Origin: Plantactinospora soyae
GTDB lineage: Bacteria > Actinomycetota > Actinomycetes > Mycobacteriales > Micromonosporaceae
Assembly (NCBI RefSeq): GCF_014874095.1
Contig: NZ_JADBEB010000001.1
Coordinates: 992,001 to 1,056,000 of the forward strand
DNA: 64,000 nt
Reading direction: 5' to 3'
The translations under genes were made by a program, and so were the position numbers. Below, one piece after another: positions 30,141 to 61,818 of this stretch; position 1 is the stretch's first letter, and every line of letters starts with the position of its first letter. A model generated the notes under the pieces. The model was not told where the DNA came from, ran no database searches, and worked only from the letters and a program-made list of their open reading frames with translations.

Positions 30141-33100
30141 TCAGGTGAGCAACGCCTCAAGCCGACGGTTCACCGCGGCCAGGGTGGCGCGGACCACCGC
30201 CTGACGCGGATCACCGGCGACCAGCGCCGATCCGGCGAGCTGCTCGACCCAGCCGTCGCAGACCAGCAGGACCACCACGGTGGCCACCTCGCAACTGCCG
30301 AACGGTACGACCGCGGCGTGCTCCACGAAGCAGCGACCCCGTTCGGTCACCCGGGTCGAGGCGCTGAGCAGTTCGTCGATCGCCGCCGCCGCCGCGACCG
30401 CGCAGAGGCGCAGGACGTACCCGTCGACCGCCGGACCGGTGGCCAGCCCGGTCGCCGGATGTTTCCCGGCGGCGAGCCGCACCTCGACGGTGGCGTCCAG
30501 CCCGAACGTGCTCACCTGCACGTGGTCGATGATCACGCGGGGCCCCGGCGGTGCTCCGGGGTTGAGCGGCCGGGAGGGCGCCGTTTCGGTCGACGTCACC
30601 TGACTGCCGGAGTACGAGGTGCCGGCCGTGCTCGGGCTGACTCCGGTCGTACCGGCCGACGCCCTCTGCAGGGTCTCCGTCTGCCCCGCGGGCTGGTCCT
30701 CGACGGCGGCCCGGCCCCGATGGCTCGGTGCCTGTCGGCGTCGACGGGGCTCCTCGGTCGACGGCTCGGCCTGGGTGGCCGGCGCCGCCGCGCGGGGCTC
30801 GGCCGGGGACTGCCGGGCCGGTCCTGGCGGGTAGGGGGCGGTGGTGGCACCGGGCGGCGCACCGAAGCCGGACGGGCTCGCGGCGGCCGGGCCGGGCAGA
30901 TTCTGTGGTGCGGCAGCCAGCCCCATCCGCTCCTGGAGCAGCCGCGCCACCTGGCGGCTCACCTCGGCCGGGTCGGCACCGTCGGAGAGGTCCAGCCGGA
31001 GGCTGTGTGCCCCGGCCGGCGTGGTACGCAGCGAGGCGTCCCGCACCCCGGCAACGCCCCGGACCGCGGCGAGGATCGCGTTGACGTCGAAACCGTCCGG
31101 TCGCTCGTGCAGTTGTGCCGCTCCATCCTCCCGACGCAGGTGGGTTGCGATTCGGGCGAGTTCCGGCGTCTCGGCGGGCGGCTCCGCGGCGGGCGGCTCC
31201 GGCACGGTGGGTACGTCCGGCTCGGCGGGTACCCGTTGCGGCAGCACGTCCAGGCTGGAATCCGCCGGCCGGGACGCGGGTTCGGCCGGTGTCGGCTCCG
31301 GATACCGGTACGCCTGTCCCGGATGGCTCGGTGCCGTCGGCAACGCCAGGGCTTCCCGGCGAGGTGGATATCCGGCCGGCTGGCCGGGGTGCGGGTAGCC
31401 CGACGACTCCGGTGTGGGCGAGGGCCGGACGGGGCCCGGCCCGGCCGGGTACCCCGACGAGTCCGCACCCGGCGGAAGCCCGGCACCGCCGAGCCCGGAC
31501 GGATAGTTGGCCGGATCCGCACCCGGCCCAGCGGGTCCCATCCCGGCCGGCCTCGACGAATAGCCCGGCAGTTCGGCCGCCGGCCCGTGCCCGGCACCGC
31601 CATGCGCCGACGGATACCCCGACGACTCCGCACCCGACGACATCCCAGCACCACCGTGCGCCGACGGATACCCCGACGACTCCGCGGCCGGTGGCGAGGG
31701 CGCCAGCCCGGTCGGCCCCGATGGATAGCCCGACGGCTCCCGGGCAGGCGGAAGCCCGGCTCCGGGCGACCCGGGCGGATAACTCGCCGGTTCGACATTC
31801 GGCCCGGCGGCGACGAGTCCGCCCGGCCCGGGCAGATAACCCGGCGACGACGGGCCCGGCGCGGCGGAGAGCCCGCCGGGGCCGGGCAGGTAGCCGGCCG
31901 ACTCCGCACCCGACTGGCCGGACAGCGTGCCCGGCCCCGGTAGGTAGCGCGGCGAATCCGGAGCTGGCGCGGGTGTCAGGGTGGCCGGCCCGGCCGGGCC
32001 GCCGAAGTCGTTCGTCCCGGCCCGGTAGGCGGGCGCCTCGGGGGGTACGGGCACGCCTCGGGCGACCGCCGGATCCTGCGGATAGCCGGGTCCGGTCAGC
32101 GGCTGGGGGTAGCCGTCCTGGTACCCGGACGCCGTGGCGGCCTGCGGTGGCTGCTCGGAGGCCCGCTGCGCCGCCTGGTCGAACGCCCGCTGCGACGCCT
32201 GGTCGGACCAACTCGTCGACGACCAGTGCTCGCGCTCCCGGGGCACCTCCGCGTCCCGACCCTGCTCGGCCGTGGGGGCGGACTCGGCGGGGTGGAAACT
32301 CTCCCCGTCCCGAGGGCCCTGCTGCTCGGCGGCGGGAGCGCCCGAGGCCCACGGCGGGGCCCAGCCGGGCGACCAGGCGCCGGCATTCGCACTGTGGGCA
32401 TCGGCGGGGGCGGTCGGCGGTGCCGCCCGCTCGTCCTGCTCGGCCGCGCGCCAGCCTCGTCCGGGCGACCCGCCCTGGTCAGCGCCGGGAACGTGGTTCG
32501 GTACCTGTTCGGGCTGGCGGGGAACCGCCGGCATCAGCGCGGTCCGCTCGGTCGCCGGCCGGTCGTAGTGGGGCCGCTCGAAATCCGCCGGGACCAGATA
32601 CTCCGACGCCGGGCCGGCCGGGGCGGCGGCCGGCGGACCCGATACCGCTGCCGGCGGACCGGACACCGCTGCCGGGGGTGGACCGGACATCGCCGCCGGG
32701 GGTGCCGAGAAGCTGGCCGGTGGCCCGGAGGTGGGGGCCGGCGGCGGCGAGAAGCTGGCCGGCGGTGCGGACACCGCTGCCGGCGGTGCCGAGAAGCTCG
32801 CCGGTGGCCCGGAGGTGGGTGCCGGTTGGCCCGGCTGACCCGACTCTCGCCACGGCGGCGGTTGAGCGACCTGCCCGGCGCCATGCTCCTGGTGTCTGAA
32901 GTCCCCGAAGTCCCCGAAGGCGTGTCGCGCCGGTCCGGCCGGATCCACCTCGTCGAAGTGGGGCTGCGACAGCGGATGCCCGGAATAGTCCGTTCCCACA
33001 CCGCTGGCCGGGTCCGGCCCGACGGCACGCCGCTCGGACGGCTCGGCGACCTCTGCCTCGTACGGGTAGACCGCCTCGCCCTGCACCGTCCGCCCGGCCC

Positions 33101-38877: not shown

Positions 38878-39306
38878 CTGAGCATCGGTGCTGCACAGGA
38901 CTCGCCGCAGGCAGCCTTCGCCCGCTTCGTACGGCGAGCCATCGACGACGCGAAGAGCGAGCACGGCTGGACGGTCAGCGACGTGGCCGCCCAGACCGGG
39001 GTCGGCCGCTCGACCGTCTTCCGCTGGCTCGCCGGCGACTGGCAGGACTATCCGGAGCTGGCCAAGGTACGCGGATTCTGTTCCGCCCTCGACGTGCCGG
39101 TCGGTGCGGCGTTCCGGGCGCTCGGGCTGCCCGACGGTGAACCGGCCAGCCTCGCCCGGAAGGACCGGGTCGATCCGCCGGTGGACGCCGACCTACGGGT
39201 GATCATGGCCCGGCTCACCGACCCCGCCGTGGCGCCCGAGGAGAAGAAGCTGATCCGCGACATGCTCCGCTACCTGGCCCATCGCCAGGTCCGGCGAGCC
39301 GGATAA
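38878..39306 (+). CDS. Helix-turn-helix protein with a CTG start
   Basis: A 142-residue regulator-like protein. Coding character and a coherent HTH begin well before any ATG, GTG or TTG: FVRRAIDDAKSEHGWTVSDV then AAQTGVGRSTVFRWLAGDW, and FCSALDVPVGAAFRALGL. The frame contains no standard start upstream of 38983, and starting there would cut off the first helices. CTG at 38878, with AAAGGG eight bases before it, is therefore the probable start. The C-terminal half ends in EEKKLIRDMLRYLAHRQ. Resembles XRE-like proteins of actinomycete development; target unknown. The stop lies within a 26-bp tandem repeat. Confidence 0.72.
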   Translation: MSIGAAQDSPQAAFARFVRRAIDDAKSEHGWTVSDVAAQTGVGRSTVFRWLAGDWQDYPELAKVRGFCSALDVPVGAAFRALGLPDGEPASLARKDRVDPPVDADLRVIMARLTDPAVAPEEKKLIRDMLRYLAHRQVRRAG

Positions 39307-43707: not shown

Positions 43708-43800
43708 CCGGCATTTCTACCAGCGACCACCGACCTGGCGGAGCGTACGGCGCGGCGGCGACGCCGGCCCGGCGTGGCGGCGGTCACCGGCGCCGGTCGG

Positions 43801-43836
43801 GTCGCCGGCCGGGTCGCCGGTCAGGTCGCCGGTCGG
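43801..43836 (+). repeat. 12-bp tandem repeat upstream of the receptor-like gene
   Basis: GTCGCCGGCCGG, GTCGCCGGTCAG and GTCGCCGGTCGG follow one another in the 220-bp divergent region between RecQ and the gene at 43928; a related partial unit precedes them. No other element is clear in the region apart from GGAGGT before the ATG. Confidence 0.75.
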
Positions 43837-43927
43837 GGCCAGACCCGATCTTTCCGGCCGACCCTTGTCCGCCGCCGCGACACTATGGTCATCTGTGTGC
43901 CACGCACAGCGACCGGCGGAGGTGCGT

Positions 43928-46615
43928 ATGCGGGGACTGGCCGCGCAGAACCAGCCGACCTCGGGTCGGGAGCGCCTGCCGTCCGGCGGGTCGGAATTCC
44001 TCGGCCTGCTGGCCCGGCTGCTGCGTCGGCCCCGGCGCGGAGACCGCCGGCTACCGCTGATCTGGCTGGTCCGGGCGGACGGTGCCCCGGACCTGATCGC
44101 ACTGCTGCGCCGGGTGCTGGGGCGGGGCCAGCGGCGTCGGATCCCGCACGCCGCGCTCGACCTGGCGGCCCCATCCGGCGGGGACATCGACACGCTGCTG
44201 CGGGACCTGCACCGGCAACTCTCGGTGGAGGCGTTCGGCGGCGAACGCCTGCGGTTCCGGCACTACCCGCTCGCCGACTGGCTGCTGCACCAGAGCGTCG
44301 TGGACGCGGCCGAGGCGGGCGACGACCGACGACCGGCCCTGGCCCGACAGCTCCGGGACCGGCGCGGGCCACGGCCGGCCGCCGACCCCGCCGGGGGCGC
44401 GAGCGGCGACCCCGACCTGGTCTCCACCGCGTACCAGTTCGTGTTCTGGCTGGTCCGACGGGCGATTCCCAGCGTCGTCTTCCGGGTCGCGATCTCCGGT
44501 CGGGTACCGCTGCTCGGGCCGCACTACCGGTGGTTCATGCGCCAGCAGTACCTCGCCCCCCGGCAGTCGGTGACCTTCCTCGGCTTCGCCGAGCGGCTCA
44601 CCGCCGGCTGGCGGGACGGGGAGCAACCGGACCAGGTGAACAAGCTGCTGGTCCACGCGTTCCTGGAGGACCTCCGGCAGGCGTACCGGCGCCGGGTCTG
44701 GCGACCCGCGAGCTGGCGCCGGACGGCGTACCCGGTGCTGTTGCTGGACAACGTCACGCCGGCCGGGCCGGGACACACCCTGGTCCGCCTGATCAACGAC
44801 GTCCGCAACGAGACGGGTCGCAACGATCCGCTGCTGGTGGTCGCGTCGGGCACCGGACCCCCGCCGGAACTGCCCGAGCCGTACTCGTTGGTAGACGCCG
44901 AGGAGGCGTACGACGAATGGGTCGACGTGCTGCCGGAGACGCGGCGGCTGCGCCGACCCGCCGCCTGGCTGATCGCGTTGCTGCTGGCCGACCCGAGCGC
45001 CGGATCGGAGCCGAGGGGCGGACTGCTCCACTTCGTCCCGCCGAACCCGCCCTGGTGGACCCGCCGCTTCCTGCCCACCGCGCTGTGCCTGCTGCTGCTC
45101 GTGGCGGCCGGCGTCTGGGTCAACGCCCGGTGGGACCGCAGCTGTCATCCCCGGCCGTTCGACGGCGCGGTCTCGGTGGAGCTGATCGGCGGCGAGTGTG
45201 TCGGGTACAGCGACAGCGCCGGGCACGTCTTCAACCGCGATCCGGGTCAGGACCGGCTCCGGGACGTCCAGCGGCGGATCTTCCAACAGAACGCCGCCGC
45301 CGAGCAGGTCTGGCAGCGCAGTGCCCAGCGCCGGCCCCTGGTGACCCTCGTCTACCTCGGCACCCTGACCGGCAACCGGACCCGGGCCGACGAGGAGTCG
45401 TACGTCTCCGAGCGGGAGGAGCTGGAGGGCATGGCGACCGCGCAGTACGCGCTGCTCCGGGAGTCTGCCGGAGCCGACGGCGCGGCGCTGCTCCGGGTCG
45501 TCGTCGCCAACGGGGGCCATCAGATGCGGCACGCCGGCCGGGCGGTGGCGTTGCTCGAAGAACTGGTCCGGGACGACCCGACCGTGCTCGGCCTGGTCGG
45601 CCTGGTGGACAGCCGTACCAGCACCGCCGGAGCGCTGCGCGAACTCAACCGGATCGGGCTGCCCACGCTCGCACCGACGCTCTCGGCGGACGGCATGCAC
45701 CAGAACTCCAAGCTGTACCTGCAGATCTCCGCCCCGAACCAGGACCAGGTGGCGTTGATCGACGAGTACGCCCGCCAGGTCCTGCGGGTCAACGAGGCGC
45801 ACGTGTACTACACCACCGGGGAGGACAGCTCCCTGGACGAGGACCTGTACGTCGGCACCCTGGTCAGCGGACTGCGGCAGCGCTTCGGCAGCCGGCTCAC
45901 CCTGGTGCAGGAGTGGCGGGTCGGTCAGCGGCTGACCCAGGAGTGCGGCTACTCCGGCCTGCTGGTCTTCGCCGGTCGGTGGTCCGAGTTCGACGGGTTC
46001 CTCCGGGGACTCAAGGAGTGCGGCCCCAATCCCCCCGCACATCTGGTCGGCGACGACTCGGTCAACCGGTACATGGCCAATCCGGGGCTCCGGGCGAGCG
46101 CACCCGGGAACCTTCCGGTGACGTACGTGTCAAAGGCCGCCCTGGCCACCTGCGCCGCCCTGCGTACCGCGCGCGACCAGCGCGACGACGTACGCGGCAG
46201 TTTCCTCTCCTGGGTGCAGGCCGACGATCTGCTCAGTCCGCCCCGGTGCCGGGCCGAGGGCAGCGTGCCGGTCGGCGAGCGGGTGAGTCTCGCCTACGAC
46301 GCCGCCACGATGGTGGTACGCGCGGTGGAGAGCCTCGCCGCCCGGCTGCGACACGCCAATCCACGGGAGGCGTGGAATCCGCGGGCGGTCAACCCGGTCG
46401 GCGTACACACCGAGGTGCTGCGGCAGAACGCGGAGAACGGCTATCCCGGGGTCAGCGGCCTGATCCGGTTCGCACCCGATTCGGGTGAGCCGGTGGCCAA
46501 GCGGATCTCGCTGGTCCGGGTGGCCCAGGTGACCGACGTCGACACCGAACCGGTCGAGGTCTTCCACTGCGGTACGGCCGCCGACGAGGCCGATCGGCGC
46601 TGCCGGCCGGCGTGA
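43928..46615 (+). CDS. Transmembrane receptor-like protein: degenerate NTPase inside, periplasmic-binding-like domain outside
   Basis: An 895-residue protein. Residues 40-350 look like a STAND-type NTPase gone degenerate: LPLIWLVRADGAPDLIALLRR lies where a P-loop should be but has no GxxGxGK, while AYPVLLLDNV resembles a Walker B. One membrane helix (FLPTALCLLLLVAAGVWVNA, residues 381-399) separates it from about 490 extracytoplasmic residues. From about residue 455 these resemble a type I periplasmic binding protein: LVTLVYLGTLTGN, VVANGGHQM, VLGLVGLVDSRTSTAGALRELNRIG, and ISAPNQDQVALIDEYARQVL, ending with VSLAYDAATMVVRAVESL. The ATG at 43928 follows GGAGGT. It is tail to tail with the SARP gene, 16 bases apart. 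It probably senses a ligand outside and signals inward (inference). Confidence 0.75.
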   Translation: MRGLAAQNQPTSGRERLPSGGSEFLGLLARLLRRPRRGDRRLPLIWLVRADGAPDLIALLRRVLGRGQRRRIPHAALDLAAPSGGDIDTLLRDLHRQLSVEAFGGERLRFRHYPLADWLLHQSVVDAAEAGDDRRPALARQLRDRRGPRPAADPAGGASGDPDLVSTAYQFVFWLVRRAIPSVVFRVAISGRVPLLGPHYRWFMRQQYLAPRQSVTFLGFAERLTAGWRDGEQPDQVNKLLVHAFLEDLRQAYRRRVWRPASWRRTAYPVLLLDNVTPAGPGHTLVRLINDVRNETGRNDPLLVVASGTGPPPELPEPYSLVDAEEAYDEWVDVLPETRRLRRPAAWLIALLLADPSAGSEPRGGLLHFVPPNPPWWTRRFLPTALCLLLLVAAGVWVNARWDRSCHPRPFDGAVSVELIGGECVGYSDSAGHVFNRDPGQDRLRDVQRRIFQQNAAAEQVWQRSAQRRPLVTLVYLGTLTGNRTRADEESYVSEREELEGMATAQYALLRESAGADGAALLRVVVANGGHQMRHAGRAVALLEELVRDDPTVLGLVGLVDSRTSTAGALRELNRIGLPTLAPTLSADGMHQNSKLYLQISAPNQDQVALIDEYARQVLRVNEAHVYYTTGEDSSLDEDLYVGTLVSGLRQRFGSRLTLVQEWRVGQRLTQECGYSGLLVFAGRWSEFDGFLRGLKECGPNPPAHLVGDDSVNRYMANPGLRASAPGNLPVTYVSKAALATCAALRTARDQRDDVRGSFLSWVQADDLLSPPRCRAEGSVPVGERVSLAYDAATMVVRAVESLAARLRHANPREAWNPRAVNPVGVHTEVLRQNAENGYPGVSGLIRFAPDSGEPVAKRISLVRVAQVTDVDTEPVEVFHCGTAADEADRRCRPA

Positions 46616-46631: not shown

Positions 46632-48563
46632 TCAGCCGGGGCCGGTCGGTCCGGCCGAGGGCACGTCGGCGCCGTCCACCGGCCGGGCCGGGAAGGCCGC
46701 TGAGGCCGGAAAGGCCGGCGGAGCCGGGAACACCGGCGGCAGGAAGATCAGGATCTCCCGGAGAAGATCCGCCACGTCCATCGGCAGCAGGCACCGGGCG
46801 ACCAGTTCCTCCAACGAGGCGTACGGGCCGCGCAGCCAGCGGTCCAGCAGGATCTGCCGGCTCTGCTCGGCGGAGAGACCGGGCAACCCGGCGACCACGT
46901 GCTCCGCGACCGAGTTGATGTCGACGAGTCCACCGTCGTCGAAGGCGCTCGGCAGATCCGGTCGGCCGATCCGGAGTTCCGTCCGGGCGGTCGGATAGTG
47001 GTAGAGCAGGTACCGGGCCTGTTCCCGCCGCATTCGTTGGTCGGCACCGACCCGCTCGTTGGGCGCGACCAGTCGCCCGCCGAACATGGCCTTCACGGCC
47101 CGGTTGATCAGGATCACGTGCACGGCGCCACCCAACCAACCCAGCAGTAGCCCGGCGAAGATCCCGAGCGTCTCGGTGTCGGTCGGCAGCACCTCGGGAT
47201 CCGGGTCCATACTGGCCAACGCGACGCAGAAGACGACCGCCACCGCCAGATAGCCGGCGCCGGCCACCGCGAGCGGCCAGCTGCGGCGCCGTACCGCGTA
47301 GCTGAACATGATCAACCAGGTGAAGGTGCCGACGCTGAGGACGACGGTCAACACCGCGAGCACGGTGCCGAGGTGGCTGACCCAGAGGGGCCAGGCGCGG
47401 CTCTGCCGGTAGGCCGTGGTCAGGGGCGGAAGCGGGAACGGCGGCCCGCCGCCGAAGGGCGGAACGCCTCCTGCCCTGCCATCCACCGGCGCCCCCGGCC
47501 AGCCGGACGTCGGCACCTGCGGCGCCTCGGCCACCACCGCCACCGGTACGGACGATGTCGTCGGCGCCGATTCCGCAGCCGAACCTGTCGGCCCGTCGGG
47601 TGCCGACCGCGTTCCGGCCAGAGGTACCGCAGCCTCCACGCCCGTTCCGGCCGGCGGTACCGCAGCGTCCACGCCCGGTCCGGCCGGGTGCGGTACGACC
47701 GGCTCCGGCACTACGACGGTCCTCGACTCCGCCGCGATGGTCTGCGGCGCTGGCACGACGACCTCCGGTTCCGGCGCGAACTGCTCCGGAAGCATCAGCA
47801 TCGGATCGGACCGCAGAATGCGGCGGTGCAGTTCCTGAAGTTGCTCACCGGGTTCCAGGCCATGCTCGTCGCGCAGCAGCGACCGGATCTCCCGGAACGA
47901 GGTGAGCGCCTCCGCCTGCCGTCCAGCCCGATAGAGCGCGAGTATGAGCAGATAGCGCAGCCGCTCCCGGACCGGGAACTGCGCCACCAGCCGACCCAGT
48001 TCCCCGACCACCTCCTGATGGTGACCGAGTTGCAGCTCCAACTCGGCCCAGCTTTCGAGGGCGGCGGTCCGCATGTCGACGAGCCGGTGCCGGGCCGAGT
48101 CGAAGAACGAACCGATCAGCTCCTCGAACGGATCGCCGCGCCAGAGATCGAGCGCGGTCCGTAGTTCACCGACCGCCTCGGACGACCGTCCCTCGGCCCG
48201 GGCCACCTGGGCGCGCCGGGTCCGCTGTTCGAAGCGCAGGAGATCCAGGTCGTCGGTACCGACCCGCAGCAGGTAGCCGGCGTCGGTAAGGCTCAGCACC
48301 TGGCCGGGAGTCCGGGGGGACCGGTCCGGTTCCAGGACCCGGCGGAGTCCGGCCACGTACTTCTGCACCACGTTGGGCCCGTTCGCGGGTGGGTCCTCGG
48401 CCCAGACGGCGTCGACGATCCGCGTCGTCGGCACCGGACGTCCCGCGTGCAGCAACAGGACCGCCAGTACCGCCCGCTGCTTGCCGGGACCGAGATCCAA
48501 CTCCTGGCTGTCCTGCCAGGCCCGCTGCGGTCCGAGGATCTCGAAACGCACCGTTCCCACCAT
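46632..48563 (-). CDS. Membrane-spanning SARP regulator with helix-hairpin-helix C-terminus
   Basis: A 643-residue protein in four parts. Residues 1-100 are an OmpR-like SARP winged helix (VRFEILGPQRAWQDSQELDL, PNVVQKYVAGLRRVLEPD). Residues 105-255 are a BTAD helical repeat (LDLLRFEQRTRRAQVARAEG, LILALYRAGRQAEALTSFRE). A Pro/Ala linker extends to about 390. Then follow about three membrane helices (HLGTVLAVLTVVLSVGTFTW, WPLAVAGAGYLAVAVVFCVA, IFAGLLLGWLGGAVHVILIN). The last 100 residues hold a helix-hairpin-helix like ComEA (VDINSVAEHVVAGLPGLSAE). SARPs are normally soluble; the fusion to a membrane/HHH module is unusual. ATG at 48563 (a GTG at 48551 is possible). A SARP-type box at 48600 lies in the divergent region. 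It probably controls the lipoprotein gene and itself. Confidence 0.85.
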   Translation of the reverse strand: MVGTVRFEILGPQRAWQDSQELDLGPGKQRAVLAVLLLHAGRPVPTTRIVDAVWAEDPPANGPNVVQKYVAGLRRVLEPDRSPRTPGQVLSLTDAGYLLRVGTDDLDLLRFEQRTRRAQVARAEGRSSEAVGELRTALDLWRGDPFEELIGSFFDSARHRLVDMRTAALESWAELELQLGHHQEVVGELGRLVAQFPVRERLRYLLILALYRAGRQAEALTSFREIRSLLRDEHGLEPGEQLQELHRRILRSDPMLMLPEQFAPEPEVVVPAPQTIAAESRTVVVPEPVVPHPAGPGVDAAVPPAGTGVEAAVPLAGTRSAPDGPTGSAAESAPTTSSVPVAVVAEAPQVPTSGWPGAPVDGRAGGVPPFGGGPPFPLPPLTTAYRQSRAWPLWVSHLGTVLAVLTVVLSVGTFTWLIMFSYAVRRRSWPLAVAGAGYLAVAVVFCVALASMDPDPEVLPTDTETLGIFAGLLLGWLGGAVHVILINRAVKAMFGGRLVAPNERVGADQRMRREQARYLLYHYPTARTELRIGRPDLPSAFDDGGLVDINSVAEHVVAGLPGLSAEQSRQILLDRWLRGPYASLEELVARCLLPMDVADLLREILIFLPPVFPAPPAFPASAAFPARPVDGADVPSAGPTGPG

Positions 48564-48599
48564 GCGCCCTCACCCCCGGAAATCCATTCGGACCAGCGC

Positions 48600-48638
48600 A
48601 CGGCAGTCCGACGGCAGCATAACGGCAGCGCGCTATTG
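48600..48638 (+). promoter_or_regulatory. Candidate SARP box: three heptamers at 11-bp spacing
   Basis: ACGGCAG occurs at 48600-48606, 48611-48617 and 48622-48628, exactly 11 bp apart with four-base spacers. CTATTG/TATTGC at 48633-48639 is a plausible -10 element a few bases after the last repeat. SARP proteins bind heptameric direct repeats of this period placed over the -35 region. The site is between the SARP gene and the divergent lipoprotein gene and faces the latter. Confidence 0.65.
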
Positions 48639-48727
48639 CCCGGGCCGCAGAGGACTGTCAGCGAGGCGGCAGTGGCGCTGTGCAGCATTGCTCCCGGCAA
48701 CAGCGAACACCCCTGGAAGGGACAGCA

Positions 48728-49528
48728 ATGAGAAGAGATACCCGCACGGCGCGGTGGGCCCGACGGATGACCGGCCCGATGGCCGCGCTGCTCGGCGCAA
48801 CCGTCTTGCTGGGCGGCTGCGGCGCGGTCAAGGAGGAACTGGCCGAGGTCACGGCCAAGCAAACGCTCCTGGAATCGGTACCGGACGGTTCGGAGGGGCC
48901 GTTCCGGTTCAGCGGCAAGGACGTGACGGGCGACGTCTCCGGTTCGGTCGATCCGGCCGCGAAGGCGCTGGACCTGAAGACGTCGATCAAGGATCCGGAG
49001 CACGGCTTCAGCACGCACATCGCGTTCCGGGTCGTCGCCGACGAAGCCTGGACGAAGATCTCCTTCACCGAGACCAAGGGGCTCACCGGGCTGCCCAAGC
49101 TGCCGAACAAGTGGTTGAAGCTCGACCCCTCGAAGTTCACCGACGCCGACAGCATGCCGACGTACGAGGGCGCCGACCAGGGCAACGCCGGTCCACTGGT
49201 GGAGGCGGCCACCACGGTCAACGACGACGGGGCGGGCAAGTACTCCGGCACCATCGACCTCACCTCGGGCGAGGCGGCGAAGGTGCTTGAGGCGGAGCAG
49301 ATGACCGCGCTCGGGGACGCGGCGAAGCAGGTGCCGTTCACCGCCGTCGTCGGCGACGACAAGAACCTGGCGTCGCTGACCCTCGCCGTACCGGCGGCCG
49401 GTTCGGCCAAGGCGTTCAGCTACGTCGTGAACTACAAGGACTACGGCAGCGCACCGAAGGTCACCGCGCCGACGGCTGCGCAGGCACAGAAGGCGCCGGC
49501 ACTGGCGTACGAACTGCTCAACGGCTGA
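48728..49528 (+). CDS. LppX/LprG-like lipoprotein
   Basis: A 266-residue lipoprotein. The lipobox LLGGC puts the lipidated cysteine at residue 31, followed by GAVKEELAEVTAKQ. The mature part alternates beta strands (GPFRFSGKDVTGDVSGSVD, HIAFRVVADEAWTKISFTET, GKYSGTIDLTSGEAAKVLE) in the manner of the half-barrel lipid-binding LppX/LprG lipoproteins, though identity is only suggested by pattern. GAAGGGA precedes the ATG. It diverges from the SARP gene and has the SARP-type box upstream and a strong terminator downstream, so it is a monocistronic likely target of that regulator. Confidence 0.7.
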   Translation: MRRDTRTARWARRMTGPMAALLGATVLLGGCGAVKEELAEVTAKQTLLESVPDGSEGPFRFSGKDVTGDVSGSVDPAAKALDLKTSIKDPEHGFSTHIAFRVVADEAWTKISFTETKGLTGLPKLPNKWLKLDPSKFTDADSMPTYEGADQGNAGPLVEAATTVNDDGAGKYSGTIDLTSGEAAKVLEAEQMTALGDAAKQVPFTAVVGDDKNLASLTLAVPAAGSAKAFSYVVNYKDYGSAPKVTAPTAAQAQKAPALAYELLNG

Positions 49529-60102: not shown

Positions 60103-61818
60103 TCAGCCGTGCTTCGGGCCCTTGCCCTTCGGCTCCTTCGGCTCCTTCGGCTCCTTCGGACCCGGCCCGCCCGGACCTTGCCCATCCGGACCCGGACCCC
60201 CGCCCGGACCCTCCTTCTTCGGTCCGGCGTTCCCCTCCGGGTGGTCGGCCGTCGGCGACGAGACCGGCGGTTGCACCCCGACCGCCCCTGCGGCCACGCC
60301 ACCGCTCTCCCCCGCCACCCCGGAGACCTGGACGGAACAGGTGGTGTCGCCGAGCCGGAACGCGACCGGCAGCGGGTTGCTGCCGGCGTACGTGCCGACC
60401 AGGTCGAACCGGGCGACACCGCCGACCGGCAGGACCGCGTCCGGGCCGTTCGCGACCGGCTGGAGCAGCACGTTCCGGCCGTCCTGCCGGGAACCGGGCG
60501 ACGGCGCGGCCCGCAACACCTGATCACCGGGAAAGGCGAAACTCAGGGTCCAGTCGCGGATCGGCCGGAAGCCGAGGTTGGTCACCGTGACCTCGGCCTC
60601 GAAGGTCCAGCCGGCGTCGGTCCGCAGTGCGTAGTCCACGCCGCAGGCCGCCGCGCCGCCCGCCGCCAGGTTCGTCGCCCCGGCGTCACCGCCGGCCGGC
60701 GCGGCGGCGTCGCGGGTACCCATCCAGACCGCTCCGGTCGCCGCGAGCAGGCCGACCCCGACGGCGGCGGTCCGCAGCGGAGTGCCGGCCCAGGCCGGAA
60801 ACCGGCGACGGCGCGGCCCCGGCAGCGCAAGCGCGCCGGTCGCCGTCGTCCGGGACAGGATCGCGGTACCCGCGTCGACCATCGGCACCGCCGGTCCCGG
60901 CTGCCCAGGCTGCCCAGGCTGCCCGGACTCGGGGCGTCCCGGACCGGCCAGCGGCACCGCCACCCCGGCGACCCGGGACAGGGTACGGGCCAGCTCGGCG
61001 CTGCCCGGTCGGTCTGCCGGTACCTTCGCCAGGCTTCGGGCGGCCAGCGTGACCACCTCGGACGGCAGTCCGGGCACCGGCGGCATCGGTGCCGGATCGA
61101 GGTGCAGATGGGCCCGCAGCATCTGGGTACGGGTCGCCGCCCGCCAGGGCAGTCGCCCGGTCAGCATCCGGTACAGCAGCAGGCCGAGCGCGTACACGTC
61201 GGTGGCGGGGCAGACCTCTCCCTGGGTCAGTCGTTCCGGAGCCAGGTACGCGGGCGTGCCGTACAACTCGCCGTCGGCGTCGCCGTCCCGCTCGCCGACC
61301 AGCGCCGAGATCCCGAAGTCGACGACCTTGGCACCCATTTCGGTGAGCATGACGTTGCCCGGGGTGATGTCCCGGTGCACCACTCCCCGGGCGTGCGCGG
61401 TGGCCAGGGCGGCGGCGACCTGCGCGGTGACCACCACGGCGTCCCGCCAGGGCAGGGTCCCCTCCCGGTCGAGCCGGTTCGCCAGCGACTCCCCGTCGAC
61501 CAGTTCCATCACCACGTACGGGACGGTCCGGCCGAACCGCACCGACTCGCCGTAGTCGTACACCCCGGTGATGTGCGGGTGGGAGAGCCGGGCGGCGGCC
61601 CGGGCCTCGACCCGGAGCCCGTGCCGGAAGGTCTGGTCGTTCGCCAGTCGCGGGGTGAGCATCTTGACCGCCACCGGCCGGCCGAGCACCTCGTCGTGGC
61701 CACGCCAGACCACCGACATGCCACCCTCACCGAGTTCCTCGACCAGCCGGTACCGTTCACCGACCAATTCGGTTCCGTGGATGTTCGCCGATCCACCCCA
61801 GCTGCCCCACCCGGTCAT
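60103..61818 (-). CDS. Membrane Ser/Thr protein kinase with CBM2-like outer domain
   Basis: A 571-residue kinase. The kinase domain (residues 20-285) has the glycine loop GEGGMSVVWRG, Lys52 in VAVKML, Asp150 in HRDITPGN, DFG at 167-169, and APE in YLAPERL. A juxtamembrane Pro/Gly region leads to one helix (residues 347-366). Outside, residues 392-494 form a CBM2-like beta sandwich: Cys392 and Cys494 bracket it as in CBM2, with FEAEVTVTNLGFRPIRDWTL and ARFDLVGTYAGSNPLPVAFR. The tail ends in KEPKEPKEPKGKGPKHG, encoded by a 9-bp repeat near 60124-60159. Actinobacterial kinases often carry PASTA outer domains; a polysaccharide-binding fold is unusual and suggests sensing of a glycan. Confidence 0.88.
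   Translation of the reverse strand: MTGWGSWGGSANIHGTELVGERYRLVEELGEGGMSVVWRGHDEVLGRPVAVKMLTPRLANDQTFRHGLRVEARAAARLSHPHITGVYDYGESVRFGRTVPYVVMELVDGESLANRLDREGTLPWRDAVVVTAQVAAALATAHARGVVHRDITPGNVMLTEMGAKVVDFGISALVGERDGDADGELYGTPAYLAPERLTQGEVCPATDVYALGLLLYRMLTGRLPWRAATRTQMLRAHLHLDPAPMPPVPGLPSEVVTLAARSLAKVPADRPGSAELARTLSRVAGVAVPLAGPGRPESGQPGQPGQPGPAVPMVDAGTAILSRTTATGALALPGPRRRRFPAWAGTPLRTAAVGVGLLAATGAVWMGTRDAAAPAGGDAGATNLAAGGAAACGVDYALRTDAGWTFEAEVTVTNLGFRPIRDWTLSFAFPGDQVLRAAPSPGSRQDGRNVLLQPVANGPDAVLPVGGVARFDLVGTYAGSNPLPVAFRLGDTTCSVQVSGVAGESGGVAAGAVGVQPPVSSPTADHPEGNAGPKKEGPGGGPGPDGQGPGGPGPKEPKEPKEPKGKGPKHG

Follow-up and report, generated by a model that had tools for sequence, protein, structure and literature searches.

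A heptameric repeat array between a membrane-type SARP gene and a lipoprotein gene of Plantactinospora soyae, a probable operator beside two proposed back-to-back promoters

Between two divergent genes of Plantactinospora soyae, one for a SARP-type regulator with predicted membrane segments and the other for a lipoprotein, the heptamer ACGGCAG stands three times in a row. This raises the question of which protein reads the repeats, and which of the two genes they serve. SARPs are known chiefly for switching antibiotic gene clusters. The locus was analysed in a stretch of 64,000 nucleotides (the window, to which all positions refer) and in relatives. Judged by sequence and conservation, the repeats are probably the operator of the adjacent membrane-type SARP, which would activate the lipoprotein gene and cover its own promoter. 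The features concerned are as follows.

46632..48563, minus strand: SARP gene, 643 aa; Pfam matches Trans_reg_C (1.6e-09), BTAD (8.8e-40) and HHH_3 (0.013)
48600..48606, plus strand: SARP repeat 1 (ACGGCAG), kept in 5/5 loci of the genus, the window's own included
48611..48617, plus strand: SARP repeat 2 (ACGGCAG), overlapping the AGCATA element by two bases
48616..48621, minus strand: TATGCT (AGCATA on the plus strand), putative -10 of the SARP gene, whose start codon is 52 bp away; it lies between repeats 2 and 3
48622..48628, plus strand: SARP repeat 3 (ACGGCAG)
48645..48650, plus strand: degenerate repeat CCGCAG of the lipoprotein-proximal array
48656..48661, plus strand: degenerate repeat TGTCAG of the same array, 11 bp on (GGTCAG or TGTCAG in sister genomes)
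48667..48672, plus strand: last repeat, CGGCAG, exactly 10 bp 5′ of the proposed lipoprotein -10
48683..48688, plus strand: CAGCAT, putative weak -10 for the lipoprotein gene, present in 5/5 loci of the genus
48728..49528, plus strand: lipoprotein gene, 266 aa, with a lipobox (LGGC) at residue 28 and a predicted fold closest to LprG

The three heptamers begin at 48600, 48611 and 48622 on the plus strand, with an exact period of 11 bp and spacers of 4 bp, just as a preliminary description of this DNA had reported. The triple is matched once in the 64-kb window and not at all in 100 shuffles, even with three mismatches allowed. Across the 9.7-Mb genome an exact CGGCAG triple is found at the 48600 site alone, and an exact ACGGCAG double at one further place. 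Direct heptameric repeats with a period of 11 or 22 bp are the form expected of a SARP operator, and relatives show some 10-bp steps. The preliminary description also held that ACGGCAG could be read directly as the consensus; the repeated word is real, but its leading A varies outside the genus, which leaves CGGCAG as the conserved word. Ahead of the repeats, at 48590-48597, the SARP gene's leader contains a GACC[AT]GC-like word, which recurs in the window's genus and in one other (g4). The window contains further exact heptamer triples at 60126-60135, 39292-39299, 43800-43802 and 32737-32738, with periods of 9, 26, 12 and 21.

The SARP has the N-terminal OmpR-type winged helix and BTAD domain by which SARP regulators are recognised, followed by a Pro-rich linker, membrane segments and a C-terminal helix-hairpin-helix-like (HHH) domain. 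AfsR (PDB 8hvr) matches it at E 5e-50. Trans_reg_C and BTAD were found in all 24 aligned SARPs of the same type (the window's included; L188, with a misplaced start, was excluded from this alignment, A3), and HHH_3 at E <=0.01 in 17 of them, the match of the window's own protein being weak (E 0.013). Hydrophobic segments are predicted in the window's SARP (L004) at residues 401-419, 431-449 and 468-486. In a hydropathy scan of 25 proteins, at least three segments followed the DNA-binding and BTAD part in 22, and two in the other three. The charge distribution makes us lean towards a cytoplasmic C-terminus, a part of the protein that is missing in two of seven genomes of the genus. Membrane activators of the ToxR/CadC type have one membrane segment and a periplasmic domain. 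The present protein, by its predicted segments, would resemble them in tethering a cytoplasmic winged helix to the membrane, but differs in that several segments are predicted and the C-terminus is HHH-like. Convergent with the SARP gene is a long ORF (43865-46612, plus strand), the second half of which resembles by eye an extracellular ligand-binding domain; searches of Pfam and NCBIfam gave nothing for this ORF up to E 0.1.

A structure model of the lipoprotein (pLDDT 84.6) was compared with the PDB, and the seven best matches were all LprG chains (best 3mha_A, E 3.1e-07), with modest TM-scores of 0.41-0.59. A Pfam search with 27 members of the lipoprotein group gave no family better than E 0.016. 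We infer that the membrane part of the SARP and the LprG-like lipoprotein have a sensing or managing role at the envelope; the idea of an envelope or lipid signal as the stimulus is guesswork prompted by the predicted fold.

Conservation was followed through the lipoprotein. A loose form of the triple (three mismatches) matched in 230 of 354 genomes of the family while its reversed control also matched in many, and is unspecific by itself. The lipoprotein profile (A1), built from the window and seven loci that had been found by the repeat pattern itself, matched in 308 of the 354 genomes, paralogues included. From the best 150 rows listed, 90 loci were taken, 30 given by the search and 60 hand-picked from the other 120, mostly by rank and with many of one genus (g24) skipped; the hand-picked 60 are not a random sample. 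Nineteen further, lower-scoring loci of genus g24 served as a held-out set; nine others repeat genomes already counted. A divergent SARP gene lies beside the lipoprotein gene in 85 of the 90 loci (the exceptions are L088, L109, L114, L120 and L124) and in 12 of the 19, or 97/109 together. The intergenic region of these pairs carries the AGCATA element in 84/85 and 12/12 cases (96/97), and the single exception (L129) by eye carries its own array of five repeats. The repeats are conserved, together with their presumed regulator, in relatives that have both genes; non-conservation had been named beforehand as the finding that would count against a SARP operator.

Outside the genus, 79 of these loci bear the AGCATA core. 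Repeat 3 differs from CGGCAG by at most one base in all 79, and repeat 4 in 77; repeat 5 is within two mismatches in 75, and the repeat at -14/-15 within one in 74. The motif [CG]ANNNT occurs exactly at +34 from the start of AGCATA, that is 10 bp past repeat 5, in 72 of the 79. In the remaining seven, ANNNT lies one base further (by eye, preceded by C in six and T in one). Elsewhere between offsets 6 and 79, the A and T of the motif were both in place in at most 21 of the 79 loci (median 0). The 12 held-out loci had [CG]ANNNT at +34 in seven and at +35 in five, which for both sets outside the genus gives 79/91 core-bearing loci with the motif at the expected place and ANNNT one base on in the other 12. 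In the window's genus the arrangement is longer: CAGCAT starts 66 bp (four loci) or 67 bp (the window) from the start of AGCATA. In all five genus loci the proposed lipoprotein -10 again sits 10 bp past CGGCAG or CCGCAG, preceded by two weaker repeats. Counted from CGGCAGN the spacing is 9 bp; the published rule for SARPs has 8 bp between the 3′ repeat and the -10 (PMC10936776; PMC4393881, as far as excerpts of these papers go), and the -10 elements here are predicted ones.

This conserved 10-bp geometry makes 48645-48688 the most likely promoter of the lipoprotein gene, in which case the triple at 48600 would be the upstream part of the operator. The preliminary description had extended the site to 48638, 10 bp beyond the last repeat, in order to take in TATTGC (48634-48639) as the -10. 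That hexamer is absent from all four sister-genome loci (L005-L008) and was rejected as the lipoprotein -10 because it is unconserved. What survives of the 'textbook SARP box' is a SARP-type operator in the divergent region, supported by the relatives; this -10 is not supported, and ACGGCAG gives way to CGGCAG as the word. A sigma-70 scan of 48500-48800 gave no consensus promoter. On the minus strand, the AGCATA between repeats 2 and 3 reads TATGCT and fits a -10 of the SARP gene itself; by eye, no conserved -35 accompanies it.

More distant loci vary the same theme. AGCATA is also found in Actinomadura and Catellatospora. In three of four Actinomadura loci (L230, L239 and L242), [CG]ANNNT lies exactly at +34 of an AGCATA core, the fifth repeat of L239 carrying three mismatches, and the fourth locus (L240) is without this geometry; by eye, the divergent genes in Actinomadura seem to encode other small lipoproteins. 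In another family of the same order (f13), three of five lipoprotein loci combine SARP and array with CAGTCT or CAGGCT 10 bp on, so that repeat, 10 bp and [CG]ANNNT recur in 3/3 without the AGCATA core. The other two (L170, L171) have neither SARP nor array and are counted among the controls below. In the Kribbella locus (L246), five repeats spaced by 10-11 bp can be made out by eye, though they escape the strict 11-bp score; 11 bp and CACAGT follow.

Two described kinds of system come close to this arrangement, as far as the excerpts available of the cited papers show. PimR, SanG and PolR, which are of the SARP-LAL type, recognise direct repeats of the heptamer CGGCAAG with 4-bp spacers, three in the case of PimR and two in SanG and PolR (PMC3367932; PMC5930380). 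The PimR site is TGGCAAGaaagCGGCAGGtgttCGGCAAG, with CGGCAGG as its middle repeat (PMC3367932), and PimR needs two repeats (PMC5930380). PimR thus resembles the present case in having nearly the same word and a site between the SARP gene and its target, and a 10-bp unit is also known there (PMC3367932; PMC5930380). It differs in its guanylate-cyclase/LAL-like C-terminal half and in a site that, by the same excerpts, is clear of the -35; here the C-terminus comprises membrane segments and HHH, the target is a lipoprotein, and the repeats stand against the -10. AfsR binds as a side-by-side dimer to 11-bp direct repeats beside a suboptimal -10, CACTGT (PMC10936776). The AfsR-afsS complex (PDB 8hvr, 8k60, 8jke) shares with the present case the DNA-binding and BTAD domains and the 11-bp repeats by a -10 of the form CANNNT (PMC10936776), but the repeat sequence is another one, AfsR has NOD and TPR domains, and it uses two repeats instead of an array. 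The excerpts of PMC10936776 describe no overlapping divergent -10 at afsS. RslR2 is a self-repressing SARP (PMC7917814), although the available part of that paper does not link its self-repression to an embedded -10.

By analogy with AfsR and PimR, the SARP would be expected to switch on the lipoprotein gene when bound at the last repeats. Its monomers would sit side by side on CGGCAG-N5 units that read toward the lipoprotein gene, and the one at the last unit, 10 bp before the weak -10 (CAGCAT), would bring RNA polymerase to the promoter of that gene. On the opposite strand the array includes TATGCT, which is probably the SARP gene's own -10; with this element embedded, bound SARP would cover its own promoter, and activation of the target would be coupled to self-limitation. 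The starts of the two -10 elements are 34 bp apart in most loci of the family outside the genus and 66-67 bp apart in the window's genus, and at 34 bp one polymerase would exclude the other.

The main alternative, which we consider unlikely, is that the lipoprotein -10 is a different CAGCAT, the one read on the plus strand inside the core (48615-48620), and that the downstream copy is secondary. It lies 8 bp after repeat 1, the published SARP spacing (PMC10936776; PMC4393881, in excerpt). A free spacing scan of the 85 loci (a repeat with at most one mismatch, then [CG]ANNNT) gave matches at 7 bp in 47 and at 8 bp in 41, which we read as due to this core CAGCAT, but the highest count was at 10 bp (64 of 85). 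A core -10 on the plus strand would also leave the invariant final A of AGCATA unexplained, whereas TATGCT on the minus strand uses that A, and the three f13 loci have the lipoprotein and a -10 at 10 bp without any core. Of two Catellatospora loci, L238 keeps the core and has no -10 match, which is weak evidence against the core as lipoprotein -10, because L241 has a match at +37 and no ORF of any kind passed the filter in either 3-kb stretch.

These two Catellatospora loci retain core and repeats with no divergent ORF found, and they thus lend something to another reading, quite unlikely in our view, by which the array activates the SARP gene itself and the lipoprotein gene is incidental. Such positive autoregulation would also agree with the array abutting TATGCT. 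The repeats, however, point away from the SARP gene, the nearest upstream unit is 1 bp from TATGCT, unlike activating sites, and the [CG]ANNNT geometry toward the lipoprotein gene is kept in 72/79 loci. A strong array elsewhere in the family (L222) retains core and CAGCAT without a divergent lipoprotein ORF, which, like the Catellatospora pair, tells against a clean separation of the two promoters.

That the repeats are bound by some other winged-helix regulator, with the SARP a mere neighbour, is very improbable. PhoP does recognise the AfsR direct repeats at afsS (PMC10972967, in excerpt), but the array tracks the membrane/HHH architecture of the SARP in several genera. This was seen among 80 SARP loci retrieved from named genomes by their protein, the nearest relative among these genomes being Plantactinospora alkalitolerans: an array score of at least 15 of 18 was reached by 16 of 18 SARPs with the membrane/HHH C-terminus and by 0 of 58 without a match to this C-terminus. 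The 18 are mostly from Micromonosporaceae; the four outside it are L230, L239, L240 and L246, three of which score at least 15. Left out of the 18-versus-58 count were L231, with no upstream DNA, and L233, L235 and L242, whose frames of 289-392 aa have no C-terminal match and whose array scores are 18, 17 and 14; L242 does, however, count among the four Actinomadura loci in the -10 comparison. The named-genome loci and the family loci are not independent sets, because some (e.g., L228 and G001, which share a 9413-bp contig) are probably the same strains. No intergenic strict array was present at 20 SARP-less lipoprotein loci (13 + 7), a control in which strict means two exact CGGCAG, so that weak arrays can escape it; the one strict match (L182) falls inside the lipoprotein coding region. 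Lastly, a chance repeat in GC-rich DNA is a negligible possibility, for although 2 of 200 simulated 64-kb windows had some exact heptamer three times at an 11-bp period, conservation across genera refutes it.

With the repeats taken as the operator of the adjacent SARP, what recurs in many species is a conserved SARP, part of which is predicted to lie in the membrane, together with an operator that can be read and a single clear candidate target. The kind of operator is already known; the variation here is a membrane-type SARP with a probable operator common to two proposed back-to-back promoters. A literature search, with most subscription papers outside its reach, found no publication that describes a SARP with a membrane part or an HHH domain. 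Neither "membrane" nor "transmembrane" is used in a 2024 SARP review (PMC10972967) or in PMC10936776. A wider proposal is tentative and, on balance, somewhat doubtful: an undescribed class of SARPs, membrane-held and with HHH, would form with a lipid-binding-type lipoprotein an envelope-sensing circuit in Micromonosporaceae, Actinomadura and Kribbella, in which one array serves two mutually exclusive back-to-back promoters and the SARP activates its partner and represses itself. The geometry predicts two transcription starts, one footprint and one spacing, all of them cheap to check, and the DNA and protein signatures together provide a way to find members of this class.

The genome search with the consensus that the preliminary description had suggested gave no regulon distinguishable from control. 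In the window's genome, the triple with two mismatches had 13 matches against 17 for the reversed control. The pattern repeat-repeat-10 bp-SANNNT with one mismatch had 40 against 22, and no regulon was drawn from it because all of these matches carry one mismatch and the window's own second array was not recovered; no further target stands out in this genome. Ten regions with strong arrays elsewhere in the family (L218-L227) were also chosen. Three (L222, L226 and L227) trace back to a SARP gene. In L218, L219 and L224 (G076, G077 and G030), CGGCAG triples lie some 7-8 kb from the SARP pair, without a -10 at 10 bp, the L219 array being between convergent ORFs. L225 gave no match, and L223 has CATGCT at 10 bp, with neither a SARP nor an ORF passing the filter. 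In L220, an array at 1767 (plus strand) is followed at 10 bp by CAGGGT and precedes an ORF for a secreted protein, a possible second SARP target in one other genus. L221, of the same genus, has an array at 1913 (plus strand) with a similar downstream leader by eye; it has no [CG]ANNNT at 10 bp, and no ORF passed the filter there. A variation on the gene pair is seen in Micromonospora sp. CPCC 205371 (L251), where the SARP keeps its C-terminus but the divergent gene encodes another lipoprotein-like protein, of 183 aa.
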